From positions 1 to 41,830 of the forward strand of contig JAQUNZ010000013.1 in assembly GCA_028717345.1 (NCBI GenBank): a stretch of 41,830 bases of DNA, read 5' to 3'. A program made the position numbers and the translations under genes. Under the pieces are notes generated by a model. That model worked only from the letters and a program-made list of their open reading frames with translations, was not told the origin of the DNA and made no database searches. Shown one piece after another: positions 4,287 through 31,939 of this stretch (positions within the stretch are counted from its first letter, which is position 1; each line of letters begins with the position of its first letter). The DNA comes from Candidatus Methanoperedens sp. (lineage in GTDB: Archaea > Halobacteriota > Methanosarcinia > Methanosarcinales > Methanoperedenaceae).

Positions 4287-5475
4287 AGTAAGAGCCCTGA
4301 GAAAAGCCTTTAATTCAGTTAAGATACGGCAGGCTCAAAATCCCCCGGATAACTTTGAAGAACGTAAAAAGAGACTTACCGCTTCAAGGGAACTTTGCGT
4401 GGGAAACGAGAAACTTCTTGCTATATCCATAGCAAACCTCAGGAAAAACGGGATAATAGTCCACCTTGTAAAAGACAAGGACGAAGCAGTCAATAAGATC
4501 CTGAATGAACTGGGCGATGAAAAACTTGTAGTAAAATCCAAGTCCAATGTCACAAAAGAGATAGAACTTACAAAGACGCTTGAGAAAAAAGGACTGACTG
4601 TTGTTGAGACCGATATCGGCGACCGTATCTTGCAGGTATTGAAGGCAAGTCCTTCCCACCCAACTGGTCCTGTGACTCATCTTTCGGCAAAAGAGATAGC
4701 AAAAGGACTTTCAACACATTATGGTATGCCAATAAAAGATGACCCTGATGAGATAGTAAAGATCGTCAGGGAAGATGTGATATCAAACATCATCAGGGCA
4801 AAAGTAGGCATTACTGGAGCCAATGCCATAACAGCAGAGGAGGGCTCCATAGTGATGACCCATAACGAAGGGAACATCTATGAGGTCATGAGAAAGGAAA
4901 AACATATTGTGGTTACCTCGATAGACAAGATATATCCCGATCTTGAAAGTGCAATGAATATGCTCAAGATACTGAGCTACAATGCCACAGGCGCGATAAT
5001 CCCCTCTTTTGTTGAGATCATAAGCGGTGTCAGTAAAACCGCTGACGTGGAAAAGAAATTCATAAAAGGTGTTCACAGCCCGTCTGAGATCACTGTGATA
5101 CTTGTTGATAACAGGAGAAGCGAACTTGCAAAAAGCGGTGCAAAGGAACTTCTGTACTGTGTCGGATGCGGCAACTGCCTTATCCACTGCCCCATGTATA
5201 ATACCATCGGGAACGAGTTCGCACGGGGCAGCCACCTTGGCGGGAAAGGCATAGCCTATCATTCCCTGTACAATAATGAGAAAGATGAAAAGCTTGAGTA
5301 TTGCCTGACCTGCGGGAAATGCCGGGAGAACTGCCCGCTGGGAATTGATATACCTGAAATGATCAGGAGGATACGCAGTACAGGTCTATCTTCAGATGTA
5401 TATTATTTCCTGAAATCGCATACGCTATGGGTGTATTTTCAGATAATTTTGAGACTGAATCTTGGAAGTGAATAG
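4273..5475 (+). CDS. LUD-domain (LutB/LldF-like) iron-sulfur protein
   Basis: 400-residue cytoplasmic redox protein. Residues about 30-290 form a LUD domain, including GITGANAITAEEGSIVMTHNEGN (in part), as in the LutB/LutC family of lactate oxidation. The C-terminus has two 4Fe-4S cluster motifs: Cys 296/299/302/306 in CVGCGNCLIHCP and Cys 344/347/350/354 in CLTCGKCRENCP. In bacteria LutB works with LutA (CCG protein) and LutC, but neither is next to this gene. The substrate or electron partner therefore cannot be read from context. The start ATG 4273 overlaps the toxin remnant. No heme or membrane segment is seen. Lactate oxidation is only one possibility; a general electron carrier or heterodisulfide-reductase-linked role is equally open. 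Confidence 0.85.
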   Translation: MNNSEVRALRKAFNSVKIRQAQNPPDNFEERKKRLTASRELCVGNEKLLAISIANLRKNGIIVHLVKDKDEAVNKILNELGDEKLVVKSKSNVTKEIELTKTLEKKGLTVVETDIGDRILQVLKASPSHPTGPVTHLSAKEIAKGLSTHYGMPIKDDPDEIVKIVREDVISNIIRAKVGITGANAITAEEGSIVMTHNEGNIYEVMRKEKHIVVTSIDKIYPDLESAMNMLKILSYNATGAIIPSFVEIISGVSKTADVEKKFIKGVHSPSEITVILVDNRRSELAKSGAKELLYCVGCGNCLIHCPMYNTIGNEFARGSHLGGKGIAYHSLYNNEKDEKLEYCLTCGKCRENCPLGIDIPEMIRRIRSTGLSSDVYYFLKSHTLWVYFQIILRLNLGSE

Positions 5476-5585
5476 TCACTATTTTTTATATCATATGCGA
5501 GCCTGAGAACGCTATACACCATGTTCACAAGATCTTCCTGTGTATAGGGATTGCTCTGGATTTCTTCCCAATCTTTGGTTGTCAA
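5439..5585 (-). CDS. Possible small protein of 48 residues, unknown
   Basis: An unbroken frame from TTG 5585 to TGA 5439 reads like genuine protein: it opens with LTTKDWEEIQSNPYTQEDL and continues VNMVYSVLRLAYDIKN, a helix-like acidic/hydrophobic pattern. It overlaps the 3' end of the LUD gene on the opposite strand by 37 bases and lies downstream of the PGF-CTERM gene's terminator. There is no SD sequence, and a stop codon sits three codons upstream of the TTG. It may be the 3' remnant of a lost gene rather than a live one. I do not recognise the family. Confidence 0.3.
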   Translation of the reverse strand: MTTKDWEEIQSNPYTQEDLVNMVYSVLRLAYDIKNSDYSLPRFSLKII

Positions 5586-5594
5586 TAAAATATG

Positions 5595-5631
5595 CTAAAA
5601 AAAGTGTAAGAAGATGATCGCTCATCTTCTT
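5595..5631 (-). terminator. Hairpin plus T-run terminator of the PGF-CTERM gene
   Basis: A perfect 10-bp stem, AAGAAGATGA (5608-5617) and TCATCTTCTT (5622-5631) with a 4-nt loop, contains the gene's own TGA stop codon. On the minus strand it is followed by CACTTTTTTTAG, a bacterial-style intrinsic terminator. The hairpin could also act on convergent transcripts from the LUD gene. Confidence 0.7.
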
Positions 5632-7061
5632 GTTCTTACAAACAGATACAGTATTGATAATACCGCTGCAGAAAGAGCTATTTCAAATCCTGGTGTCCCT
5701 TTTTTGCTTCCAGTAGCAGGTGTTTCTTCAATAGCTGTAACTTGCCCTGATGCTTGCGGTTCCGGGGTGGCTGTCGGCACGATCTCACCTTTTAATCCGG
5801 TGATCGCAAGATTTGCGAAGGCAGTTGTCTTTGCTTCAAAGTAGGTATAAGTGCTGTCTTTGCCTGTTTGCGCAGTCTCAAGCTGCACCCATTTTGTTCC
5901 GTCCCACCTGACAAGCCGTATGTCTGTTGCTCCGATGCCGTTGTCAGTAAGCCATGTATTCAATACCCTGAATCCGATTGAGGCACCTTGAATATTCTTT
6001 GCCGAAACGAATCCTGTTGTTCCGACCCATACATTGAAATTCTTATACACAACACCGGGAGCAGTTACATTTACAAGACTGGATCTGCCTTTTAGCAATT
6101 CCAGAGCTGTATTTATCAGCCCTGCATTGGTATTGCCTGTTATATTGACGAACATCACCGCACTGCTGGCGTTCTTGAATTTGTATGAGGTGATCTTATC
6201 TTTATAGATCATTTCCTCATATTTTTCTTTCAGTTCGATATTATTGAAGTTCTCAGCAGAACCTCCGCCGCCGCCACCTCCGCCACCTCCGCCGCCGCCA
6301 CCGCCGCTGCTACTGCTAGAACTTGAACTGCTGGTGGTTGATGAAACAGAAGTCGTTGTTGACACTGTTCCTCCGGGGATCGTTGATGTCACACTCATTG
6401 TGAACGTATTGGTCGTTGAGGGACTATCTGCTGTTACGACCCATGTGCCTGATGTTGATCCCTGCGCTGAAATAGATCCCAGTGAATACGAAATCGTTCC
6501 TGATGACAGACTGAATCCAGCTGGCAGCGTTAGATTTACTACAACATTTGTTGCATCTGCCGCGCCTGTGGCTGCACTGTTCGAAACAAGATAACCCAGA
6601 GTGACAGTACCGCCTGTAGCTACTGATGATGCACTTTTTGAAGCTGTTACAGATAGAACTGGTCTATCTTTAACAGTCAATACAGATGAAGACGTGCCAG
6701 ACGCAGTAGTTCCGCCATCATCTCCAACTGCACGAACTGTAAATGGTGCAGGATTTGTTCCAGTTGATGAAGCAGTTATTGTCCATGTGACTGATTGAGT
6801 TCCATCAGTTGTGAACTGAACATTCTGTGTGGCTGTCGGGATCGAAAATAATCCCGAATTATCAGTGAGTGTAGCAGCAACAGTTAATGTACCTGAAACA
6901 GATGAAGCTGTTACAGATGACGTAATAGTTATACTCTGGTCCTTGACTACTGTTGTATCATAACTGATCGTTCCTACTGAAAGTGATGCAGCCGCAGATG
7001 CAGATGAAACATATCCAATAAAGAACACCAGCATGAGAATTAATATTGAATTCGTTCTCAT
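5622..7061 (-). CDS. PGF-pre-PGF / PGF-CTERM surface protein
   Basis: 479-residue secreted, cell-surface protein. N-terminal Sec signal about 1-23 (hydrophobic ILILMLVFFIGYV, then SSASA). Residues about 24-245 are Thr/Ser-rich beta-sandwich repeats resembling DUF11-type domains. A Ser run and 15 consecutive Gly form a flexible linker near 245-272. The PGF-pre-PGF domain follows, about 273-435 (region starting NFNNIELKEKYEEMIYKDKI). The tail has a TPGFE motif, a hydrophobic helix and a final RTRR, the PGF-CTERM signal processed by archaeosortase A. Start ATG 7061 overlaps the stop of the giant gene (ATGA) and has a strong GGAGGAATT upstream, so the two are co-translated. I infer that it anchors or cooperates with the giant protein, which has no C-terminal anchor of its own. 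Confidence 0.9.
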   Translation of the reverse strand: MRTNSILILMLVFFIGYVSSASAAASLSVGTISYDTTVVKDQSITITSSVTASSVSGTLTVAATLTDNSGLFSIPTATQNVQFTTDGTQSVTWTITASSTGTNPAPFTVRAVGDDGGTTASGTSSSVLTVKDRPVLSVTASKSASSVATGGTVTLGYLVSNSAATGAADATNVVVNLTLPAGFSLSSGTISYSLGSISAQGSTSGTWVVTADSPSTTNTFTMSVTSTIPGGTVSTTTSVSSTTSSSSSSSSSGGGGGGGGGGGGGGGSAENFNNIELKEKYEEMIYKDKITSYKFKNASSAVMFVNITGNTNAGLINTALELLKGRSSLVNVTAPGVVYKNFNVWVGTTGFVSAKNIQGASIGFRVLNTWLTDNGIGATDIRLVRWDGTKWVQLETAQTGKDSTYTYFEAKTTAFANLAITGLKGEIVPTATPEPQASGQVTAIEETPATGSKKGTPGFEIALSAAVLSILYLFVRTRR

Positions 7062-10000
7062 GGAATTCCTCCTGGTTTTGGCCCGCCTTCCATAGGCCCT
7101 CCTGATCTCATCTTTCCTTTATCCATGATAAAGAAGTTGTTTTTCAGCGTTTCGACTCTTCCGGTTCCATCTTCAGTTATTTGCACAACTGCTGTCAGTT
7201 CTGCAAAGTCGAAATCATAGGCACCGCCAGATTTCAGTTCGTCTGGAAGTTGAGCTGGTGTTACTGTTATCAGCCCTTCACCATCAGCAAGTGTAACGTT
7301 GATAGGCGTAGTCATTGTAAATGTCATTGGAAGCGTATCAAAGAAACCACTTGTGATATTGCCTCCAAATGACATCTTTATCTGTGTAAGTCGAGCAACA
7401 CCATTTATCCTGACGCCTGAGAAATCCTTTGCTATTACATATATAGTAATATTGTCAGACCTGTTAAGATCGAACTTTGGAGCAAATGTTCTGGCTGTAT
7501 ATGTATTTGCTGTATCATTGAACGATAATGTCGGAAATGCCAGCGGCCAGTTTTGCATATTTCCTGTTCCAACATCCCATGCAAATTGCTCTGACATGTT
7601 GGTATAAGTGATACCCATTCCGGGACCTCCACCCATTGAAATTGCATCTCCATATCCACTTTCATTGGTGTACATATCATAAGATACTTGTCCGGCGGAT
7701 GGAGACCATGAATTCAGCTCTGTCAGGTCATAGTCGTCATCATATATTGCCTGAGTCGGGAAATTCACACCGTTCGCAAGTCTGTCAATCATCAATATCG
7801 AATACCTGGGGTCTGATGTGATCACTCCTGCTGGCATATCAGGTCCTCCAGCTCCTAAGGTAGGAAGATCCACCCCGATATCCCGATCGCTGAACCTGCC
7901 TGTATAAAATATAGGTGAATCAGCAGTCCACTGCGGGATCGGGAATACATTTGTAACACTTCCGTTCAGGAGGAATATCTTTCCGCCCCATTCGGGTGCG
8001 CTGGCTACATAGTAATTATTCAGATCAGATATGTTCTCACCAATACGATAGATTCTTGAACTGCCGCTGGTCTGGTTAAAGACAAGCACCCTGTCCATTG
8101 TTTCGATCCTGCCCCAGTTAACAAGGTCTCCTGAAGTAGGTGCGATATCCTCGTAGCCATAAACGAGATAGTTATGACCATTAAAGGTGATGTTATTCAC
8201 GGATCCTCTCAAATTATCAGCTTCACCGTTATTTGGATTGCCATCTGTAAGATTACTTAAAGCATCTATACTTGCAATTAATACGGGTTGCATCAACTGT
8301 AACTGTACACTTTGATTTGTTTGATTGATATCAACGACCTGGAAATCAAGACCGCCGATCCACCAATTCCGATTATTAACAAGATCAAATGTCTGACTCT
8401 GCGGCTGATTCCAGGGTTGCTGCAGATCGGGCCATGTCCACGGCCATCCCTTATATGACATTAATATGGTAGCCTGACCTACTCCAATATTTGTAACATT
8501 GAAAAGCCACATATTACCAAAGTCACTGAAATTATTGACCCCTCTACTTAGATTTATTATGGTATTGATATTCTTTTTAGTAGTTACGTTATAAGTTACA
8601 ACGCTCTTGGCATTGCTTGAATTGATCCGGGTTCCATTTCCTGGATTCAGTGTATTGCCGTTATCTGTGGAATAATTGAATCTATTTGTAGTACTGTTGT
8701 ACCACCAGTCATTGAATGGATATTCAAGCTGATATCTCTGACCAACATTCCACCAGAATCCAATACCGCGCTGGAAGTCGATCTCATCGCCGTATGAGAT
8801 GAGCATATTGTTTCCTGGAATTCCATCCGCTGTATTAGTATCATTTAACTTTATAAGATCGATACGTCCCGGAATTCCAAGCGCTCCGGATACCATAAAG
8901 TTCCTCAATTCGAACCTCGGCAACTGCCAGAACATCTCATCATCAGCAACCGCATAGCTGTTCCCTATAGTTGCATTGTATTTAATCATCCATGAGCCTG
9001 TCGGGATAGGTCTTTGTGAGGTATTTATCGAGATAATTGCCAGTCCGTAAGTATCTGTCGTAGCATTGATTCCTGAAAGTGGTTCCTGTAATCTACTCTC
9101 ATCCATCAGGAAATCAATAGAAACATTGCTGCCATAAATGGCACTTCCACCTGGATTGGTAACAAGGAACGGTATCTTTACGATAGTTCCATTCGCAAAG
9201 GTTCCCAGATTCATGCCTCCCCAGCCCTGCCTGTAAGTCGTGAACTGGAGTTGATAAGTACCTGACTGGTATTTATTACTGATAAGATATGTTGGCTTTC
9301 CGCCGAATCCAACAGCAGCTCCTGCGCTTGCATCCTTGTATCCTCTTGAGAAATTAGTGGTATTGCTGACATATACAGTATTATAAATACCTGATGTTGC
9401 AGAATCTATCATCAGAATGTGATATGTATCATTCCAATACTGATTATCGCCATCAAGGTCAATACCTCTCCACTCATCATCTCTCATGTTGCCGAGCAGG
9501 AATTTGCCAGATATGCTTCTTGACATTATTGTACTGTTAAGAATAATTCCATTCTTCAATGCATTTATTCCTTCAAGGTTCACAGTACCGTCATCAGTGA
9601 TCGATTTGATCCTCCAGGTACGTCCTGTATAATCTGTGAAATTGTCTCCTTCTGTCTTATTAAATACCTGTGTAGTTACATTATTCGAGAGATTATAATA
9701 TTGCATTCCCCCTTCTGTCGTATTCCTATACTCTATATAGACAGTCCTCTGGGAAGTATCTACCACAACCATTGCAAACTGCGGATTCTGGCTTACAATC
9801 CCTTGATTAAATATCTGATTGTCATTACTGCTCTGCAGGATTTTTACCGCATCATTTGTATTATCATTAACGATAATCCCGCTGACCTTACCTGCTGTTA
9901 CATTTCCAAGGCTTTGACCTGCGAATTTGCTCTTTACAGATGTCACATCTGTTGATGCATTAAATGATGTCTTATTTGTATAATAAGTTCCGCCATTTAC

Positions 10001-13000
10001 ATTGACCATGTTCAGTTCCGGCATATACACCCCAGCCAGAGCCATGCGGAACCAGAATTCGGTATATACTTCATTGCTCTGGTTATCCGTGACCTTCAGT
10101 TTCATGACATATCCGCCCTGCGCCCACCCGGATGTGTTGACAGAGATATTGAACCTGTGATCCACACCGCTGACTTTTTGTGTTGTGGTAATAGATGCCA
10201 TCTCACTCTTGCTGCGGTATGAAGTCATGTACATGCCTTCCTGCATGACCTTCTCAACAGTTACATTTGTAATGTTAATCGATCCTGATGATCCGCCCCT
10301 CATATCCTGGGAGGCGACAACTGTCGCATTCATGAAACCAGTAGTAGAGAATTCATATACACCATTCGTATCCACCCATGTAACAAACGATTTCAGGTTA
10401 ACCCATGCTCTACCGACCTCAGTGGAATTGCCATCAGTTGCTTCAAATACGAATTCGAAATTCCCGCCTTTGTTGATGCCTGTGCTGTAATTATAATAGC
10501 CGGTTCCATTTATGTAACCAACATTGATATTGGGTTCAGCATAAACTGTCGGCGGCGCCATCATTTCCCAGTCGCCCATTGAAATGATCCTCTTTAAAGA
10601 TACACTGACATTCTTTCTATTGAAATTGCTGTCAAATGTATTAAGGGTGAAATTTATCGGGCGACCTACACCATTATCAAATGAAGTGGAATAGGCAAAA
10701 AAGATGAAATTGCTGACCTCGAACCACCCGTTGCCATAATCAGTGACACCATCCTGCGTGGTCATCTTGACCCTGACAGTATAGAATCCGGATTTTAGAT
10801 TCCGGTTGGTATTGATAATTGTCAATGTGGCTTCACCATTTGAATTTGTCGTAGTGGATTGAGATGAATTGACACCATACGGAATATTCTCTCCAGTCAT
10901 GCCATATTTCAAGGATGAGACTTCTATTGTAGCGCTTGAAACATTGTTCCCGCTGACATCCTTTACTTTTACACTAAGAGTAATATTATCACCTGAACCA
11001 AATGCTTTGAACATCCCTGTTCCTGAATCTGATTGCGGTTTTACAAATATTTCATAGGATTTTTCATCAAACCAGCCATCTCCGATCACTTTCTTTGGAG
11101 AACCGCCTATTGTTGCGTTCACCCAGAACTTGACATTGTGGAAACCAAGATGAGAATCATTGGCAGTGAACTTCAATACTTTAATAGTTTCTGAACCTCC
11201 AGGACCGTACTGAACCTGGATCTGCTCAAGTGTAATATTTAACATTTCCTCGGTGACAATATCATTTGCACCTTCACTCCATACCTCGACAAGACCTGCT
11301 TCAGAAATATTCGCTGCAGTCAATCTCCCGCCTGTAGATGGATTGAAAGCCAGGATATTCAATCTTACAAAACCGCCTGGTGATACTTTCGGATTGAACC
11401 AGCCGTTCTTGTTCACAGGCTCACCGTGAACGAACATGTCCTGCACTGAGATCGTGGTGCTTGCTTTTACCCAGCCTGAGATATTTGCCTGGACAACCAC
11501 ATTGTAAATACCATTTGTTGAAGGCGCTGTGAAATTGATTATTGTGAAATTATTTCCCAGCATCATTTTTATTTCAGACTGGATATCAGTCGGGACACCC
11601 AGATAAGAAAAGAACGCAGTCTGGTTCATTACGTTCCAGGAAGGTGTGACATCTGTGCCTGTGCTGTCTGTGATATTCACCCTGAAGTTGCTGGTATTAA
11701 TAGCGACCATATCCTCAATATTGATATTCTCTCCGCCTGACAGGTTAGTTCCGGCTAGGATCATAAAAGCACCCATACCAGGTGCAAAACCATCGCTATC
11801 CTGTCTTTCTTTTGAAACGGGTTTTAAGAACAGGTTATATGATTTGATATTATAACTTGTAAAAGCCTTTTGCGTCTGTGAATTATTGACCGAGGTGAAT
11901 TCCACATTATATGTGGTTTCTTCCTCAGTTGAAGGGATTGTATATGAGTATGTATAGGCGCTGATATTGCTATCATATGTAAGGCTCTTTGAAAGTATGA
12001 ATGAAGTGTTAGTCTGGCTTCGGATAGTAGCTCTCACTGTTGCTGTTGTTACAGGGTACCCGGTAGATACATCTTTGAGATATAAGGCGCCCTTCAACGT
12101 TTCCCCACGTGCGAAAGTATGTTTTGGCTTATTTTCTTCAGAAAGAATATCGGAAAATATGGTATTTGTATTTACCATAAATGATAAATGTCCAATGTTG
12201 CCTGCTATTAAATGATATATCCCGGATGCATCCTGTATGGTTATTGATGTGGTATTAATACCGTTTGAATTTGTACTGAGTGTTGTATTGCTGACGGCTG
12301 TTCCGTCGTTCATGATATATTCCATTAGAATATTCTGGCTAAGAGGATAATTCGTTGAATTTAATACGAGGAATGTAACATTTCTGGTCTCGCCGCCCGC
12401 AAAAACAGGAGCTATCGGTCGAGCCAGCACTATCTGGGTATCGTTATGGATATCCATTATAGTGTATGTTGTAGCATTTAATTTGACTTTTGACCCCTCG
12501 ACAAGATTTCCAACCACACTGTTGCCTGAAATGTCTGAAGACAGGTTCATTTCATTATCATCGTCCATATAAGCCACGTCATCGTTTGAAACAAGGAAAT
12601 AGAATGGTCTGCCATCGAAAGTTACGCTCCCTCCGGTTTTGCCCGTACTGAGGGGACCTGTTATGCCATGACTGCCTGATAAAGAAACTACAAGTACAGG
12701 GCCCTGTGAGAAGAATGTTTTGATCGTACTTGGATCAGAAGCTCCAAGAACGGTCATATTTAGATATTGGGAATTAACTCCTGATTCCACATATGTGGCT
12801 GCAACTGTATATTCCCCGGATGATCCTGGGGCATTTATTGTCGTGGAGAATGCACCGGAAGATGCATATACCAGTTGATAGCTTGTGGCTGATCCTGTGA
12901 ACTCGTTCCCCCGTACCCAGATCGTTATATTAACAGCGCCTGATGCATTGCCATCAAGGATCGCTCCTGAGACGCTTATTGGATCATTTGCAGCATAATA

Positions 13001-13180
13001 CTTTGAATTGATATTGAACTTCTGTATCGATGCTGCCATTGCTAATGGATTCATGAAAATGAAAACCACCAAAGCAATGGAAATGACTGAAACAATATTC
13101 TTCTTTCTAACATTTTCTTTTGTTAACCAAACCAACATAACCTCAGATCTCCTTCTAATAAACGTTTTTACCTTCATCAT
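7058..13180 (-). CDS. Giant secreted surface protein, 2040 residues
   Basis: Exported protein with a positively charged N-terminus and a signal/transmembrane helix at about 29-49 ending in AMA-A. Nearly all the rest is predicted beta-rich: repeated Ig-like/MG2-like units of roughly 100-120 residues. Several carry a G-W-F or A-W-V signature at the repeat junction (NKNGWFNP, IGDGWFDE, YGNGWFEV, VGRAWVNL). I see no cysteine in the whole chain and dozens of N-x-S/T glycosylation sequons. The C-terminus is a short Gly/Pro-rich tail, MRSGGPMEGGPKPGGIP, with no transmembrane anchor or sorting signal. The SD GGGGGTGA lies 6 bases before ATG 13180 and supports this start. It overlaps the PGF-CTERM gene by 4 bases. 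Likely roles are S-layer, sheath or adhesin; the exact function is unknown to me. Confidence 0.85.
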   Translation of the reverse strand: MMKVKTFIRRRSEVMLVWLTKENVRKKNIVSVISIALVVFIFMNPLAMAASIQKFNINSKYYAANDPISVSGAILDGNASGAVNITIWVRGNEFTGSATSYQLVYASSGAFSTTINAPGSSGEYTVAATYVESGVNSQYLNMTVLGASDPSTIKTFFSQGPVLVVSLSGSHGITGPLSTGKTGGSVTFDGRPFYFLVSNDDVAYMDDDNEMNLSSDISGNSVVGNLVEGSKVKLNATTYTIMDIHNDTQIVLARPIAPVFAGGETRNVTFLVLNSTNYPLSQNILMEYIMNDGTAVSNTTLSTNSNGINTTSITIQDASGIYHLIAGNIGHLSFMVNTNTIFSDILSEENKPKHTFARGETLKGALYLKDVSTGYPVTTATVRATIRSQTNTSFILSKSLTYDSNISAYTYSYTIPSTEEETTYNVEFTSVNNSQTQKAFTSYNIKSYNLFLKPVSKERQDSDGFAPGMGAFMILAGTNLSGGENINIEDMVAINTSNFRVNITDSTGTDVTPSWNVMNQTAFFSYLGVPTDIQSEIKMMLGNNFTIINFTAPSTNGIYNVVVQANISGWVKASTTISVQDMFVHGEPVNKNGWFNPKVSPGGFVRLNILAFNPSTGGRLTAANISEAGLVEVWSEGANDIVTEEMLNITLEQIQVQYGPGGSETIKVLKFTANDSHLGFHNVKFWVNATIGGSPKKVIGDGWFDEKSYEIFVKPQSDSGTGMFKAFGSGDNITLSVKVKDVSGNNVSSATIEVSSLKYGMTGENIPYGVNSSQSTTTNSNGEATLTIINTNRNLKSGFYTVRVKMTTQDGVTDYGNGWFEVSNFIFFAYSTSFDNGVGRPINFTLNTFDSNFNRKNVSVSLKRIISMGDWEMMAPPTVYAEPNINVGYINGTGYYNYSTGINKGGNFEFVFEATDGNSTEVGRAWVNLKSFVTWVDTNGVYEFSTTGFMNATVVASQDMRGGSSGSINITNVTVEKVMQEGMYMTSYRSKSEMASITTTQKVSGVDHRFNISVNTSGWAQGGYVMKLKVTDNQSNEVYTEFWFRMALAGVYMPELNMVNVNGGTYYTNKTSFNASTDVTSVKSKFAGQSLGNVTAGKVSGIIVNDNTNDAVKILQSSNDNQIFNQGIVSQNPQFAMVVVDTSQRTVYIEYRNTTEGGMQYYNLSNNVTTQVFNKTEGDNFTDYTGRTWRIKSITDDGTVNLEGINALKNGIILNSTIMSRSISGKFLLGNMRDDEWRGIDLDGDNQYWNDTYHILMIDSATSGIYNTVYVSNTTNFSRGYKDASAGAAVGFGGKPTYLISNKYQSGTYQLQFTTYRQGWGGMNLGTFANGTIVKIPFLVTNPGGSAIYGSNVSIDFLMDESRLQEPLSGINATTDTYGLAIISINTSQRPIPTGSWMIKYNATIGNSYAVADDEMFWQLPRFELRNFMVSGALGIPGRIDLIKLNDTNTADGIPGNNMLISYGDEIDFQRGIGFWWNVGQRYQLEYPFNDWWYNSTTNRFNYSTDNGNTLNPGNGTRINSSNAKSVVTYNVTTKKNINTIINLSRGVNNFSDFGNMWLFNVTNIGVGQATILMSYKGWPWTWPDLQQPWNQPQSQTFDLVNNRNWWIGGLDFQVVDINQTNQSVQLQLMQPVLIASIDALSNLTDGNPNNGEADNLRGSVNNITFNGHNYLVYGYEDIAPTSGDLVNWGRIETMDRVLVFNQTSGSSRIYRIGENISDLNNYYVASAPEWGGKIFLLNGSVTNVFPIPQWTADSPIFYTGRFSDRDIGVDLPTLGAGGPDMPAGVITSDPRYSILMIDRLANGVNFPTQAIYDDDYDLTELNSWSPSAGQVSYDMYTNESGYGDAISMGGGPGMGITYTNMSEQFAWDVGTGNMQNWPLAFPTLSFNDTANTYTARTFAPKFDLNRSDNITIYVIAKDFSGVRINGVARLTQIKMSFGGNITSGFFDTLPMTFTMTTPINVTLADGEGLITVTPAQLPDELKSGGAYDFDFAELTAVVQITEDGTGRVETLKNNFFIMDKGKMRSGGPMEGGPKPGGIP

Positions 13181-13260: not shown

Positions 13261-13343
13261 TTTCGTTCATTTATGTGGTCTCGGAGAAAAAAGATTAGAA
13301 TAAACAGATGAACCGATCTGGCAGGTATGTTATTCAAAAAAAT

Positions 13344-13414
13344 GCACCGATCGGGATTTGAACCCGAGTTATTAGCTTGGAAGGCTAAAGTCATAGCCAC
13401 TAGACCATCGGTGC
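13344..13414 (-). tRNA. tRNA-Gly(TCC)
   Basis: On the minus strand a 71-nt cloverleaf folds fully. The acceptor stem is GCACCGA with TCGGTGC, the D arm starts GTCTAGTGG, and the anticodon stem TTAGC/GCTAA carries loop CTTCCAA with anticodon TCC. The T stem is TCGGG/CCCGA with loop TTCAAAT. No CCA is encoded, as is common in archaea. A run of T residues follows within a few bases of the 3' end and probably terminates transcription. No intron is present. Confidence 0.97.
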
Positions 13415-13523
13415 TTTGATCTGGCACTTACAGCACTTTTTACCTTAAAAACCTTTAGATTCAAATAGGTTTTCCTGAGGAGAATTCTTATCTCCAGTCA
13501 CTCTATATAAAACGGTGATTATC

Positions 13524-25916: not shown

Positions 25917-27560
25917 TCAAACCATATTCGCCATTGCAACAAAGGACACCTCTGCCAGTATTGCTGAAAGCCAGACCATACCCACGAAGTGAATATAGCA
26001 ATTGAAAAGGCTTCCGCCGTCCACTGCCCTCAAAAGCAGTGCTGAAAGGAAAGAGTGACCAACCATCATCGCCATAAGCAGTAATGCCAGGAAATTGATA
26101 TCCATCACAGAACCCAGGGAAAGGATCGAGGTCATTCCGGGCGGTATATCGGTGCCTGCGAATATGTTTGTAAGCATCTTGACTATCGCAAGCGTGAGGA
26201 ACATGGTAAAAGCAATACCTCCAGTTAACCCGTAAACTTCTCCCAGGAGGCTCGTGGCAAGAGAGTAACGCAGTTTTCTCAATGAAACTATGCGCATGAA
26301 GTTATCCCCGACTATATCGCCTATGGCTTCAGGTTTTCCTCCCTTGTCTATTCCTTCGGCAAATATTGTACCGAACCGTTCGATAAGGTTGCTGCCAGTA
26401 CCTGCCGCGAAATAGTTCCAGGACATTATCTTATTTATCCTGGTTTCAAGACGTTTATACAATTCATTGATATCCGGTGTCAGGGGACCAAAATCATGAT
26501 ACGTCAGATTGCGAAGAGAATCCCTTATAATGCCTCCCCTGGCGCCAGCCGTGGAACCGAGAGCGCGAACGAATGCTGCAAAATTATCATCCTTTCGCTT
26601 TATCAATTCTTCTTCTTTTCTTGCAAAATAACCTGTTAACGCAATTGGAGTAATAGCTACTGCGATCTTTATCGTGATGGGGAGCGCCCCGCCCCAGAGC
26701 ATCATTACTATCGACAATAGCATGACCCCTATTATCGAAACTGGAAAAGACATGCGTATTTTCCTGTCAGCCGCAGTTTCGATGCTCAGGGTATGCCATA
26801 TCTTATCTTTTGGAGACTTGGTTTTCATGACATAAACAAGGATACCTTCTGCCCCCAGGAAAGTAACTATAGAACCTGCCATCAGGGGACCAGGTTCCAT
26901 ACCAGTGATTATAGGCATTATCAGTGATATCGAAGTAAGGAAGATCAGAGCTGTCATCATAGCCACGAATATCTCCTTTGTCATCTGGATCTCTCCAAGT
27001 GATTTCTTGTACATGGTGTCAAATTCGTTCATTACGACTTTCTGCTCAGTCCAGATGAATTGTTCAAACGGTTCACCCGCCTCTGAAGAGTGCGCAAGCC
27101 TGTCAAGAAAATCCGCAAAAATCGGAGACGGCGTCCTCTTTGAAATGAACCTGCACGCCTGTGACAGGCTGAAGTTCCAGTCGTTCATCAATGAATATAT
27201 CTTTCCGGTCTCTGTTGCAAGGTAACCATACGCAGCGTTCAATGAAAGCTGGCGGATGACCTCTTTTCGCGCCATGTTCGAGGTTGCAAGCACGCCCATG
27301 TGCGTGATATAATAATGCATGTTCACTTCTATCTGGCTTCTCTTGGTTCCCATCACGGTCATCGGATAGAATAACGCCAGTCCAATGAAGAGTACAGGCA
27401 CAAGTAGAAGCACGTATGTGAAAGCCCCGGTAATAAGGTCGGGGACAAGAAGGAACATGATGATGGGGAAGAAAATACCCATGAATGCAAGCGGCAGGGC
27501 AAACCTGATGACGTATTGCCGCTGTGTCATTTCCATGCATTCAAAAGCTTTCTTGAACAT
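25917..27560 (-). CDS. arlJ: Archaellum membrane platform protein ArlJ (FlaJ)
   Basis: 547-residue polytopic protein of the type II secretion GspF/TadC family, the membrane platform on which the archaellum is assembled and rotated. Hydrophobic segments cluster near 15-60, 205-260, 270-310 and in the C-terminal third. The two cytoplasmic T2SSF-type domains lie between, with conserved stretches such as NMHYYITHMGVLATSNMAR and LGSTAGARGGIIRDSL. AGGTGAAAT precedes ATG 27560, seven bases after the arlI stop. It is the last gene of the minus-strand archaellum operon. It should bind the ArlI hexamer on its cytosolic face. Confidence 0.93.
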   Translation of the reverse strand: MFKKAFECMEMTQRQYVIRFALPLAFMGIFFPIIMFLLVPDLITGAFTYVLLLVPVLFIGLALFYPMTVMGTKRSQIEVNMHYYITHMGVLATSNMARKEVIRQLSLNAAYGYLATETGKIYSLMNDWNFSLSQACRFISKRTPSPIFADFLDRLAHSSEAGEPFEQFIWTEQKVVMNEFDTMYKKSLGEIQMTKEIFVAMMTALIFLTSISLIMPIITGMEPGPLMAGSIVTFLGAEGILVYVMKTKSPKDKIWHTLSIETAADRKIRMSFPVSIIGVMLLSIVMMLWGGALPITIKIAVAITPIALTGYFARKEEELIKRKDDNFAAFVRALGSTAGARGGIIRDSLRNLTYHDFGPLTPDINELYKRLETRINKIMSWNYFAAGTGSNLIERFGTIFAEGIDKGGKPEAIGDIVGDNFMRIVSLRKLRYSLATSLLGEVYGLTGGIAFTMFLTLAIVKMLTNIFAGTDIPPGMTSILSLGSVMDINFLALLLMAMMVGHSFLSALLLRAVDGGSLFNCYIHFVGMVWLSAILAEVSFVAMANMV

Positions 27561-27567
27561 ATTTCAC

Positions 27568-29163
27568 CTATAAATTAAACGGAAGACCCTCAACACCGTT
27601 CCTCTCGAAAGCCCATATAACATCTTTTGTTTTATAATAATCAACAATATTCTGTTCTACCATTTTTTGAAGAATTTTTGCACGCAGTTCAAGCTCTGCA
27701 TAGATCTTTTTTTTATCTGCATAACCGAGTTTATGGGCGATCAGATTTTCAAGGATATAGCTGTTGTTCAATCCCCTGAAATGATGCTTATCATTGAGAG
27801 CGTCCCACTGGAATACAGCTCTTGTAATAACACCTTTTGATTCTTCCATATACCCTTCTATCTCTTCAACCGATACGCACCTGCGCAGGAATACACCCTG
27901 CCTGTAAACCGCCTGCAGTATCATGACAACATGAAGGTTGTCGATGAAAGTAACAGGTACTTTGATCGGGTCACCTGTTATCCTCTGGATGAGTTTCTTT
28001 ACTGAAGATGCATGGAATGTTGCCATGACAGAGTTTCCAGCCTGCATCGCCTGGAATGCCACTGCTCCCTCCACGCCCCGTATCTCACCCACGATCACGT
28101 ATGTGGGACGAGAGCGCAGCGCAAGTTTCAACAGGCTGAACATATCCACCTGAGAATTCTTCGGACCAGTCTCGCGCGTGATCATCTGCTGCCATACTTC
28201 CTGCGGGGCTGTTACTTCAGCCGTATCCTCGACGCTGTAAATTTTCCCTTTTGAATTGACAAAAGGCATTATCGAGTTAAGCGCAGTTGTTTTTCCGCTT
28301 GCTGTTTCACCGCTCACGAATACGTTCATACCGTTCTCAAGGCACAGCCACAGGTAAGCCCCGATCTCTGCGCTGATGCTTCCCCATTTAATGAGCTGCG
28401 TGACGCTTGTGGGTATAGCTGCGAATTTCCTGAGCGTAAATGAACTGCCGCGCCTGCTGACTTCACGGCTGTAAATGATGTTTATTCTGGAACCGTCAGG
28501 TAACGCGCCGTCTGCTATGGGTCTGAAATCACTCACAGGTCTTCCTATCCGTTCGCTCATCACCCTCATCCAATCATCTATCTGCTCATCAGATGAAAAA
28601 TGGACATTCGTTTCCAGCATGCCGAGTATCTTATGGACAACGAAAATGTTGTATTTGCCGATATCGTGAATATCTTCAAGATACGGGTCTCTTATGAGAG
28701 GTTCGATTATACCGTGACTTACAATGTTGCGGTCTATGAAATATTTTATTTTTTTGAACTCATCTTCTTTTAGCGAGACTTTTTCCTTGTTCCTTGTGGA
28801 TCTTCCTATAACTGTCATTTTATCCAGGAGTTTATTGAAATGTTCCCTGAGTTTATCAGGCGTGTCTGCCGCAAGTTCTTCAGGTGTTCGCCTCAGTACC
28901 ATTCCGAGCAGTTCCAGATATTTTTCCTGCTCATGAGGCGTCAATTCTGGTTCGATAGCATAGTATTTTACTCCTATCTTGTGCGTCCCGTATAAATGTA
29001 TGAAAAGCGGATCACCTACCGGATAGATGACATTAACATTTTTCTTATCCATATCTCTTGAAAGCTGTGGAATAAATGACGGTGTAACCCCTGTTTGTTC
29101 CTGGAACTTCCGGATGTAAATTCCAAGATGCGGATTATTCTTAATAGCTTCTTCAAGTTCCAT
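27568..29163 (-). CDS. arlI: Archaellum motor ATPase ArlI (FlaI), second copy
   Basis: 531-residue secretion ATPase of the GspE/PilT-FlaI family that powers archaellum assembly and rotation as a hexamer. Walker A is GETASGKT at 285-292. Downstream are the Asp box region YSVEDTAEV, Walker B-like YVIVGEIRG, and the His box stretch AGNSVMATFHASSV. The N-terminal domain (1-200) includes RDPYLEDIHDIG. All catalytic motifs look intact. It is preceded 6 bases upstream by a paralogue with the same architecture and long blocks of identical residues, so this is one of two tandem ArlI copies. It is closer to arlJ and keeps the common Walker A continuation TTALN. Confidence 0.93.
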   Translation of the reverse strand: MELEEAIKNNPHLGIYIRKFQEQTGVTPSFIPQLSRDMDKKNVNVIYPVGDPLFIHLYGTHKIGVKYYAIEPELTPHEQEKYLELLGMVLRRTPEELAADTPDKLREHFNKLLDKMTVIGRSTRNKEKVSLKEDEFKKIKYFIDRNIVSHGIIEPLIRDPYLEDIHDIGKYNIFVVHKILGMLETNVHFSSDEQIDDWMRVMSERIGRPVSDFRPIADGALPDGSRINIIYSREVSRRGSSFTLRKFAAIPTSVTQLIKWGSISAEIGAYLWLCLENGMNVFVSGETASGKTTALNSIMPFVNSKGKIYSVEDTAEVTAPQEVWQQMITRETGPKNSQVDMFSLLKLALRSRPTYVIVGEIRGVEGAVAFQAMQAGNSVMATFHASSVKKLIQRITGDPIKVPVTFIDNLHVVMILQAVYRQGVFLRRCVSVEEIEGYMEESKGVITRAVFQWDALNDKHHFRGLNNSYILENLIAHKLGYADKKKIYAELELRAKILQKMVEQNIVDYYKTKDVIWAFERNGVEGLPFNL

Positions 29164-29169
29164 TGTACC

Positions 29170-30783
29170 TCAGACTGGAAAGGGAAGCCCTTCCAACCCG
29201 TATTCCCTGTATGCCTGCACCATCTTGAACGTCTCTGTAAAATCGAATATCTCGTGTTCTACCATAGCGTTCAGTACCTTCGCCCTTTTGAACAACTCAT
29301 CGTATATTTTCCTTTTATCTTTGTATCCCTGTCTTGCTGCGATCTTTTCTTCAAGGATGTAACTGTTATTCAATCCCCTGAACTCGTGTTTGTCATCTGC
29401 CGGATTTAACTGGAAAACAGCCCGCGTAACCACGCCTCCCGCTTCCTCATAATACCCTTCAAGCTCTTCTATGGCAAGTATCCTCCTTATGAGAATGCCA
29501 TTCCTGTAATATGCATGAAGCACAACACAGACGTTCAGGTTATCTATGAATGTGACCGGGACGCTTATCGGTGCACCGATGAATCTCTGTATCATCTTTT
29601 TCACTGATGAAGCATGGAACGTGGACATCACGGGATGTCCGGTCTGCATTGCCTGGAAAGCCACCGCTCCTTCTATACCCCGTATCTCACCTACGATTAT
29701 ATAATTTGGACGCGAACGCAGCGCGGCTTTCAGCAGTGTGAACATGTGCACCTGCGATTCTTCAGCCCCTTCCTCCTTGGTCGCAAGCTGCTGCCATACA
29801 TCATGGGGGGGCGTAACTTCGGTAGCATCCTCTGCGCTGTATATCTTGGCTTTTGAATCTATAAATATCAGTGTTGCGTTCATTGCTGCTGTCTTTCCGC
29901 TTGCTGTTTCCCCGCACAGGAAAACGCTCATGCCGTTCTCAAGGCACAGCCAGAGATACGCTGCTTCTTCTGCGCTCATTGTACCGAATTTTATGAGCTG
30001 GGTTATGCTCAATGGCGTTTTTGTGAATTTCCTTATAGTGAATGAACTTCCGCGGCGGCTGATATCGTCGCTGTATGCGATCGCTATACGAGAACCGCTG
30101 GGAAGTGTGCCACCTGCTATCGGGTTTGCATCCCCTATAGGTCTGCCTATGCGTTCGCTCATGGTTCGAAGCCAGTTATCAAGCGACATTTTTGAATCGA
30201 ACCTGACATTGGTCCTGATATTTGCGAATATCTTATGGACAAGAGAGATCTGATTCAATCCCACGCAGTGGATGTCCTCAAGATACGGGTCTCGTAACAT
30301 TGGTTCCACAGGACCCGAATCAAAAATATCCCTTATTACAAGATATCTCAATTTATCATATTCTTCCTTTGTAACTTTGATAATTAAAGACGCAAGAGAC
30401 CTTTTCACAAATGCTTCCACCCTGACAGTCTCGTCAATAAGTTTTAAAACCGTCCCCCTTAAGTCATCTTTTGACTTGACTCTTACTCCTTTCTCAAGCA
30501 CCCGGTCAAAAACTGTGGCGTATAACTCTTTTTCTTCCTCCCTGAGCTGCGGTTCGATGACAAGATACTCAATATCCTTATGCGGCTCTCCATATATGTG
30601 TATGAATACAGGGTCTCCGACCGGATATATTATGTTCGGGGTCTTTTCAAGTGACATCTCACGGGGGAGGCTGGTAATAAATGACGGGAGGCTGGTGTGT
30701 TCTTTCTGGAAATTGAGGAGATAATCGGAAAGATGCTTGTTATTTTTAAGAGCTTCTTCGAATTCATTTTCCATTTTCATCAC
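29170..30783 (-). CDS. arlI: Archaellum motor ATPase ArlI (FlaI), first copy
   Basis: 537-residue paralogue of the next gene. It has the same N-terminal domain (RDPYLEDIHCVG), Walker A GETASGKT at 291-298 but followed by AAMN instead of TTLN/TALN, the Asp box region YSAEDATEV, Walker B-like YIIVGEIRG and STFHASSV. All acidic and basic catalytic residues that I can identify are present, so it may be active. It starts with GTG 30783 in a GTGA overlap with arlH (ATG 30780 or 30774 are alternatives). Two full-length arlI genes side by side are unusual, since archaella described so far use one. Candidate explanations are a hetero-oligomeric motor, a division of labour between assembly and rotation, or a recent duplication. 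Confidence 0.92.
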   Translation of the reverse strand: MMKMENEFEEALKNNKHLSDYLLNFQKEHTSLPSFITSLPREMSLEKTPNIIYPVGDPVFIHIYGEPHKDIEYLVIEPQLREEEKELYATVFDRVLEKGVRVKSKDDLRGTVLKLIDETVRVEAFVKRSLASLIIKVTKEEYDKLRYLVIRDIFDSGPVEPMLRDPYLEDIHCVGLNQISLVHKIFANIRTNVRFDSKMSLDNWLRTMSERIGRPIGDANPIAGGTLPSGSRIAIAYSDDISRRGSSFTIRKFTKTPLSITQLIKFGTMSAEEAAYLWLCLENGMSVFLCGETASGKTAAMNATLIFIDSKAKIYSAEDATEVTPPHDVWQQLATKEEGAEESQVHMFTLLKAALRSRPNYIIVGEIRGIEGAVAFQAMQTGHPVMSTFHASSVKKMIQRFIGAPISVPVTFIDNLNVCVVLHAYYRNGILIRRILAIEELEGYYEEAGGVVTRAVFQLNPADDKHEFRGLNNSYILEEKIAARQGYKDKRKIYDELFKRAKVLNAMVEHEIFDFTETFKMVQAYREYGLEGLPFPV

Positions 30784-31478
30784 GACACGGATGCAATTTC
30801 AACCACAAGACCTACGTTCGATTCTATCCTGAATCCGATCATGCTCTCAACTGAAGCAGATGCGCCTGTGAATTTGTTTACAATGATGGTTCTCTTGATG
30901 TTGCTGCCAAGAGTGCTTATTTTCAATGTCAGGTTTATATCAGCAGATGAGACGAACTCGGTATGGATGTGGTTTTCGAGTTCTGAGGGTTCAATCGAGA
31001 GAATTATGGTCTTACTTACACCTGTCAGTCTCTTAAAAAAAGAGATCAGTTCAAGACCTTTCTCCATGTTCACGCTATGTTTGATGAGTGAGGAGATGGT
31101 GTCAATAATAATTATATCGTTCTTGAAAAGTTCTTCTGCTTCTCTTAACCGTTCTATGAAATCCAGTCTTGGCGCAGAGGGGTCCATCATGGAAAGGACA
31201 GGGATGTAGAGCAACTTTTTCTTTAAGAGGAAACTGGCAATGCTATAGTTGAGCGAATGCATCTGGTTGATGAAACCCTTAGTGGTCATCTGGGTCGAGA
31301 TATATGTCACTGTGGAGCCATTCTCCATGAGTCCGTAAGCAAGTCGCTGGCACACCGTGCTTTTTCCGCTGCCGCTGCCGCCTTCTATCACAACTATGGA
31401 GCCTGCTGGAAAGCCGCCGCCAAGCTTCCTGCACAATTCGTCGCGGGGAAGGTCAAAAGAACGGATGCCGGTTATCAT
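30780..31478 (-). CDS. arlH: Archaellum ATP-binding protein ArlH (FlaH)
   Basis: About 232-residue KaiC/RecA-like ATP-binding protein that forms a ring on ArlI/ArlX and regulates the motor. Walker A GGSGSGKST is at 33-41 from ATG 31478, and the Walker B-like strand is IIIIDTISSLI. It keeps TYISTQMTTKGFINQM, typical of FlaH. The open frame runs further upstream, to 31619, but that part overlaps arlG by more than 130 bases and has no family match. I therefore place the start at ATG 31478 or at GTG 31487, the latter overlapping the arlG stop as GTGA. The stop overlaps the next gene (arlI) by 4 bases. Confidence 0.9.
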   Translation of the reverse strand: MITGIRSFDLPRDELCRKLGGGFPAGSIVVIEGGSGSGKSTVCQRLAYGLMENGSTVTYISTQMTTKGFINQMHSLNYSIASFLLKKKLLYIPVLSMMDPSAPRLDFIERLREAEELFKNDIIIIDTISSLIKHSVNMEKGLELISFFKRLTGVSKTIILSIEPSELENHIHTEFVSSADINLTLKISTLGSNIKRTIIVNKFTGASASVESMIGFRIESNVGLVVEIASVS

Positions 31479-31483
31479 GGATA

Positions 31484-31939
31484 TCACGTCTTGAAAGCCA
31501 TTGTGTCGAATACGCCATTTCCGGCTACCACGCGGACTGTATGATCTCCTGACGATATAGGAGGGTTCTTTCCGCCGGAGTATGTGTAGTTCAGCATCAG
31601 GACATAGGTGGGTGACCATTGAGTGCCCCCTTCCATAACACGGTATGTGAGGTTCATTGTAAACCTTCCGTCCACGAACATATTTACCGTGGTTGTGTCA
31701 AGAGTCGATTGTCCAGTATTTTTTACGAAGAAACTGAGATTGGAAGATGAATTGGGAATCATCGCCGGGTCATTGATGATGGTAATGTCGGTCTTTAACT
31801 GGTCTGCTAATGTCTTGCTGTTCATACCATAAGAGGCACTGATACTTTGCACGTTGGTCGTGACCACTCCGAGTACACCCACTGCTATAATTATCGCGCC
31901 TATGAAGAATATCAGATGGGTTATTCCTTCGCCTGGCAT
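31484..31939 (-). CDS. arlG: Archaellum stator protein ArlG (FlaG)
   Basis: 151 residues: an N-terminal pilin-like segment (EGITHLIFFIGAIIIAVGVLG) and an extracellular beta-sandwich domain about 45-150, the layout of ArlG. ArlG polymerises outside the cell membrane and, with ArlF, anchors the motor to the S-layer. GAGGTAG precedes the ATG. N-x-S/T sequons are present in the extracellular part. It lies between a Fn3-like secreted protein and arlH, matching the usual F-G-H order apart from the inserted gene. Confidence 0.88.
   Translation of the reverse strand: MPGEGITHLIFFIGAIIIAVGVLGVVTTNVQSISASYGMNSKTLADQLKTDITIINDPAMIPNSSSNLSFFVKNTGQSTLDTTTVNMFVDGRFTMNLTYRVMEGGTQWSPTYVLMLNYTYSGGKNPPISSGDHTVRVVAGNGVFDTMAFKT

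Follow-up and report, generated by a model that had tools for sequence, protein, structure and literature searches.

A giant surface protein without an anchor and its PGF-pre-PGF neighbour: a probable two-gene surface module in Candidatus Methanoperedens and related archaea

The gene pair and its junction

The window (the whole stretch of DNA that was analysed, 41,830 nucleotides) carries the gene of a giant surface protein on the minus strand, followed directly by the gene of a smaller protein, P0002, here called the partner. The features of the pair are listed in the direction of transcription.

7058..13180, minus strand: giant surface protein, 2040 aa, 0 Cys, 78 N-X-S/T sequons, no C-terminal anchor; full-length homologues in 20/238 genomes of the class
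13034..13180, minus strand: signal peptide of the giant (residues 1–49), predicted cut between AMA and AS
12221..12406, minus strand: MG2-like beta-sandwich domain (residues 259–320); Pfam MG2 16.4 bits here, above the cut-off in orthologues
10763..10990, minus strand: MG4/Big_1-like domain (residues 731–806); Pfam MG4 20.9 and Big_1 18.1 bits, below the cut-offs; second copy by profile
8891..9208, minus strand: second MG4/Big_1-like copy (about residues 1325–1430); hhalign of giant segment against giant segment, 97.3% probability, E 2.5e-11
7068..7072, minus strand: GGAGG, Shine–Dalgarno site of the partner within the last codons of the giant; equivalents in 18/18 loci examined
7058..7061, minus strand: ATGA stop/start overlap, translational coupling, read in the DNA
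5622..7061, minus strand: partner P0002, 479 aa, PGF-pre-PGF protein; orthologue directly after the giant in 20/20 genomes
6663..6992, minus strand: domain A, beta-type (residues 24–133), proposed to dock the giant; mean pairwise identity 56%, r 0.946 with the giant
6330..6656, minus strand: DUF11 beta domain (residues 136–244); Pfam PF01345, 26.7 bits, cut-off 24.6
6255..6329, minus strand: Ser/Gly linker with poly-glycine, from the sequence; crossover point of the deletion in genome G020
5796..6254, minus strand: PGF-pre-PGF domain (residues 270–422); TIGR04213 147.2 bits, cut-off 28
5625..5696, minus strand: C-terminal tail TPGFE–hydrophobic–RTRR, a PGF-CTERM-like membrane or sorting anchor by sequence and hydropathy; below the PGF-CTERM models

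The overlap between the stop of the giant and the start of the partner, noted in a previous sequence-only reading of this DNA, was found as ATGA. Each of the 18 loci examined has GGAGG, GGAG, or GAGG closely 5' of the partner start, within the end codons of the giant. The junction is ATGA in nine of these and GTGA in one, and in the remainder no more than about 20 nt separate start and stop. Since the Shine–Dalgarno site falls in the last codons of the giant, its conserved C-terminal glycines are at least partly the ribosome-binding site of the partner. At the level of sequence, the two genes are translationally coupled, and the ribosome-binding site in the last Gly–Gly codons together with the stop/start overlap indicates that the two proteins would be made together. 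A fusion of giant and partner through frameshifting was considered and dropped, because the signal peptide of the partner would be buried in such a product.

The giant protein

The open reading frame confirmed the 2040-residue, Cys-free protein described earlier, and its export signal. Along all 2040 residues, the sole hydrophobic segment by hydropathy was this N-terminal signal, where the alignment conserves an A-x-A-x-SIQKF pattern. The abundance of glycosylation sequons also stood up: the 78 sequons compare with 35.7 ± 5.2, and 59 at most, in 1000 shuffled sequences. Among the 17 giants aligned, 50 columns carry a sequon in 8 or more sequences, and four control N-x-z motifs reach that level in 1 to 7 columns. 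The giant is likely to be N-glycosylated at dozens of conserved sites.

Ig-like repeats had been proposed as well, and these are real but weak in the window's copy. The MG2 match reached 39.7 and 36.2 bits in orthologues (cut-off 32.8), and profile self-comparison revealed one duplicated domain, with about residues 725–830 recurring at 1325–1430; in the window's giant, the MG4, Big_1, and MG2 matches all remained under the Pfam cut-offs. That the giant folds into an extended series of Ig/macroglobulin-like beta domains is thus partly shown. AlphaFold2 models of its two halves, computed from a three-sequence input, had pLDDT values of 32.5 and 29.7 and were not used. Profile searches of the PDB with the giant and with the partner yielded no relative, and neither did a search of viral contigs. 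The lack of Cys was dropped as a signature. It is ordinary, since portions (800–1199 aa) of the canonical S-layer proteins of the same genome are also Cys-free and the clade II giants contain 2 to 17 Cys each.

The partner and its anchoring

The partner consists of a signal peptide, domain A, DUF11, the Ser/poly-Gly linker, the PGF-pre-PGF domain, and the TPGFE–hydrophobic–RTRR tail. Its assignment as a PGF-pre-PGF protein was borne out by the TIGR04213 score of 147 bits, and 14 of the 15 partner orthologues scanned match this model (E ≤ 0.01). Domain A is the best-conserved part (56% mean identity), and its identities follow those of the giant most closely (r = 0.946), ahead of the PGF-pre-PGF domain (35%, r = 0.57) and the tail (22%, r = 0.46); these correlations serve for ranking only, as shared ancestry inflates them. 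The partner of genome G003 retains a domain A 74% and a DUF11 69% identical to those of G014, joined to an unrelated C-terminal half. Pfam and TIGRFAM scans detected no catalytic domain in the partner.

The PGF-CTERM label given earlier to the partner holds for the layout of its tail, yet the tail misses the PGF-CTERM models (TIGR04126/PF18204). One orthologue, in G043, passes with 25.0 bits (cut-off 24.5). Archaeosortase A (ArtA) is encoded in the window's genome (TIGR04125, 250 and 223 bits, cut-off 75). Lipid anchoring by the archaeosortase, as the sequence-only reading had it, is plausible for the window's partner with its PGF motif, but it is not general: in G017, G021, and G009, the partner terminates with a PGF-less transmembrane helix, and in G003 it has no recognisable anchor in its sequence. 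Nearly all complete partners have a membrane tail, most of them with the PGF-pre-PGF domain. No C-terminal anchor was found in the window's giant or in any homologue with an intact 3' end, in line with the earlier description of the giant as anchorless. As far as the protein sequences go, only the partner, and not the giant, can be held in the membrane.

Distribution and constancy of the pair

Of 120 relatives, 18 had a giant homologue, and across the class the count was 20 in 238 genomes, including that of the window; most of the genomes compared are drafts. The distribution is patchy (5 of 39 genera). The carriers comprise 10 of the 31 Methanoperedens genomes, one genus of family f2, two of f3, and genus g17 of f5. 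The RNase J of a g17 genome gave a close, full-length alignment with PDB 5haa/5ws2 ('MPY-RNase J'), which we take to be the protein of Methanolobus psychrophilus; g17 is therefore probably Methanolobus, an identification that serves as a lead. The homologues are full-length and single-copy (1967–2048 aa where complete), and two close relatives on contigs L004 and L005, from an uncultured archaeon and a Candidatus Methanoperedens MAG, showed 80 and 84% identity. The alignment is conserved from end to end, unlike that of an adhesin growing by repeat expansion.

In all 20 giant-bearing genomes, a partner orthologue lies directly downstream on the same strand, at giant identities of 33–84% (18 loci read, phmmer 1e-37 or better; two later genomes, tblastn 1e-104 and 1e-115). 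A profile of the N-terminal region of the partner (residues 21–245) recovered exactly the same 18 of 120 genomes (E 1e-15), at one place per genome, save one case split over two contigs. The genes around the pair vary between loci and the pair stays. Giants without the partner as neighbour, or with an anchor of their own, were sought among the 20 (for the anchor, among those with an intact 3' end), and none was found. Taken together, the constant adjacency, the identical set of genomes, and the lack of an anchored giant lend strong support to the two-component assembly put forward by the sequence-only reading.

One homologue, L074 (G143:C1:287265-291611), matches residues 557–2003 of the model only and has two in-frame TGA codons inside that match, with the partner still downstream; it is possibly a decaying copy or an assembly error.

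Neighbouring genes

Several observations were made on the surroundings of the pair and on other parts of the genome.

13343-13414: tRNA-Gly(TCC) just upstream of the giant; also L035:5622-5693 and L036:6742-6813 (in genomes G000, G013, and G023)
L048:12898-16956, L040:13139-17230, L039:211-4407, L037:121-4371, L038:13030-17589: surface protein with a PGF-type tail, upstream of the giant

In G023, the similarity ends just past the tRNA-Gly(TCC) gene, which may mark an insertion boundary. A possible empty site beside the M42 gene was considered: in the flank of the nearest relative (G011), neither the tRNA-Gly gene nor the giant lies beside the M42 gene, and the homology begins at window position 13471, which would suit a change in either direction. 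The upstream surface protein (1350–1520 aa, same strand as the giant) occurs in five Methanoperedens species and is absent from the window's own locus. The G021 copy is an S8 subtilase that bears a PGF-pre-PGF domain; those of G003 and G017 share 73–77% identity with it or with each other.

Elsewhere in the window's genome, a PGF-pre-PGF domain (G000:C4:4524-4961, L030) lies within a 7205 aa open frame that encodes an enormous surface protein. Within the window, two consecutive T2SSE-type ATPase genes (27568-30783; 531 and 537 aa) adjoin a T2SSF gene (25917-27560) and a KaiC-type gene (30780-31619). Together they make up a cluster of archaellum or pilus-like type whose motor ATPase is doubled.

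Replacement and loss at shared loci

Genomes G003, G017, and G021 carry the pair at the same locus, with flanking proteins mostly 73–96% identical between G003 and the other two (LeuD 94–96%, the next two genes 92% and 88%, the subtilase-type gene 73–77%). Between these flanks, the giant is 31% and the partner 37–40% identical. The DNA similarity ends at position 5206 of L048 and resumes at 12896, so that the heterologous stretch (L048:5207-12895) frames the giant and its partner (5261-12782). The giant tree joins the G003 protein to its counterparts in G009, G014, and families f2 and f3, apart from the other Methanoperedens giants. With this placement in another clade, the difference is one of replacement and not of fast drift. 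Methanoperedens is divided in the partner tree as well, whose deep joins are uncertain on account of long branches. By these comparisons, giant and partner were replaced together, as a unit, at one locus between Methanoperedens species.

At the same locus, G020 has neither the giant nor the N-terminal domains of the partner.

L180:4463-8944 (G020; compared with L040 of G021): surface subtilase chimera, with the switch at the poly-Gly linker

After its poly-Gly run, this subtilase continues with a PGF-pre-PGF domain and transmembrane tail of the partner type. The resemblance to the partner amounts, for example, to 26/30 identities, against 20/30, right after poly-Gly, and to 9/9, against 5/9, at the end. 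The G020 locus looks like a deletion footprint, as expected from recombination between two PGF-pre-PGF repeats; an insertion, in the opposite direction, is possible. The chimera suggests that anchors are swapped through recombination at such poly-Gly linkers.

A surface module and its alternatives

With these results in hand, we propose that the giant and its partner constitute one surface module, a giant ectodomain with a membrane-anchored holder, to which we assign a probability of about two-thirds. Because the two genes are always together and are inherited, swapped, and lost as a unit, it is most likely the partner that keeps the giant attached to the cell. The giant would be translated first, with the partner coupled to it through the ribosome-binding site in the giant's end and the stop/start overlap, and both proteins would be exported by their signal peptides. 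The giant would be N-glycosylated and fold as its chain of Ig/macroglobulin-like beta domains. The tail would secure the partner in the membrane, by ArtA-dependent lipidation where PGF is present and as a plain transmembrane helix elsewhere, and the partner would reach outward through the PGF-pre-PGF domain and the poly-Gly linker. We infer that its N-terminal beta domains, domain A and DUF11 and chiefly the former, bind and display the giant. The assembly would stand beside or atop the ordinary DUF1608 S-layer and may serve contact with other cells, minerals, or viruses; such a role would explain why the pair is lost or exchanged as a unit. Its function is probably adhesion or recognition. 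Some points weigh against the module: the G003 partner keeps domain A and DUF11 but is anchorless, three partners are devoid of the PGF motif, and adjacent genes co-occur by linkage, so co-occurrence alone is no proof of interaction.

The same anchorless partner of G003 is in keeping with a different role, in which the partner would help the export, glycosylation, or assembly of the giant without holding it, and the giant would be released or form a matrix. The giant is itself anchorless, and conserved coupling would suit a helper too. We regard this as unlikely, since the membrane tails and PGF-pre-PGF domains of the partners are cell-surface features and no catalytic function was recognised in them.

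The pair could also be the principal S-layer or sheath of these cells, as the sequence-only reading had contemplated. Size, predicted glycosylation, Ig-like domains, one copy per genome, and a two-component layout like that of SlaA/SlaB (PMC10903991) all fit such a role, but the distribution does not. Independently of the giant, 118 of 120 genomes encode PF07752 proteins, with 19 matches in the window's genome, while the giant is restricted to about a third of the Methanoperedens genomes and few genera. Nor does it have any profile similarity to this family: there was no Pfam match to DUF1608/PF07752, and the hhalign probability was at most 0.6% in every stretch. As the canonical S-layer family is there regardless of the giant, the pair is decidedly unlikely to be the main S-layer, which is almost surely of the PF07752 type, and this identity was rejected.

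We give very little credence to the giant being an alpha-2-macroglobulin-like trap acting with an adjoining surface subtilase. It was suggested by the MG2 and MG4 matches, by the S8 subtilase upstream in G021, with homologues occupying that position in G017 and G003, and by the existence of archaeal macroglobulins (PMC8416519). Beyond those MG2/MG4-like matches, the giant has no A2M, bait-region, or thioester-domain match, it can have no CxEQ because it has no Cys, and the subtilase is missing beside the giant in the window and in the Methanolobus-like loci; this identity was rejected. Least probable of all is that the two genes are unrelated and linked only by synteny. Linked genes trivially share presence and absence, but here the surroundings differ while the pair persists, and the boundaries of replacement and loss coincide with it.

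Comparison with known systems

The proposed module of giant and holder is closest in layout to the S-layer of the Sulfolobales, where SlaA (1424 aa) is soluble and beta-rich and SlaB (475 aa) combines beta-sandwich domains with a membrane-bound coiled coil (PMC10903991). Both systems have a large glycoprotein (predicted as such here) without an anchor and a smaller anchored protein, the G003 partner excepted; the 475 aa of SlaB compare with 479 aa in the partner, and the N-terminal beta-sandwich domains of SlaB with the partner's beta domains. They differ in the anchor, which is a PGF-pre-PGF domain with a PGF-like tail in the partner and a coiled coil in SlaB, and in that the giant–partner pair is accessory and patchy, with another S-layer family present. 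No SlaA or SlaB chain was among the PDB profile matches of the giant or the partner, a comparison of sequence only.

The partner shares with the PGF-pre-PGF/PGF-CTERM substrates of archaeosortase A the TIGR04213 domain, the PGF–hydrophobic–basic tail, and ArtA in the genome. It differs from them in that its tail scores below the model and three orthologues have no PGF, and the giant has neither the domain nor the tail. The Methanosarcina-type S-layer protein (PF07752/DUF1608) is likewise an exported envelope protein, with Cys-free portions in the window's genome. The Methanospirillum S-layer protein carries both six Ig-like domains and a PGF-CTERM on a single polypeptide (PMC11641113) and so resembles the pair in Ig-like domains and PGF-type anchoring. 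Both have domains and anchor in a single chain, whereas here they are split over two genes.

In Thermococcales, a large multi-Ig surface protein heads the recombining locus of the VARTIG modules, and mosaic surface proteins have been noted in Methanosarcinales (PMC8416519). Recombination among surface genes of the latter is thus not new. The pair resembles VARTIG in having a large Ig-type surface protein at a recombining locus; it differs in that VARTIG has a hypervariable C-terminal Ig domain with varying genes there, whereas the giant is conserved throughout and its partner is constant. A literature search found no description of such a constant giant–partner pair.

On this basis we tentatively suggest, at slightly less than even odds, that the pair is a second, independently evolved two-component canopy with a membrane holder, standing atop the S-layer in Methanosarcinales. 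It would move between species as a two-gene cassette, with recombination at the poly-Gly stretches of PGF-pre-PGF anchors as one route of loss, and its alleles would set adhesion targets or virus recognition. If this is true, split display, with a giant ectodomain and a separate holder anchored by lipid or in the membrane, would extend beyond Sulfolobales to methane-oxidising and methanogenic Euryarchaeota, and the PGF-pre-PGF class would gain a concrete role as an interchangeable base for surface structures. Some carriers of the giant have complete or nearly complete genomes and belong to a genus that can probably be cultivated (probably Methanolobus), which makes the proposal testable. Exchange of the entire pair at one locus suggests that, in archaea on which methane release depends, the outermost layer is under selection from partners, surfaces, or viruses.
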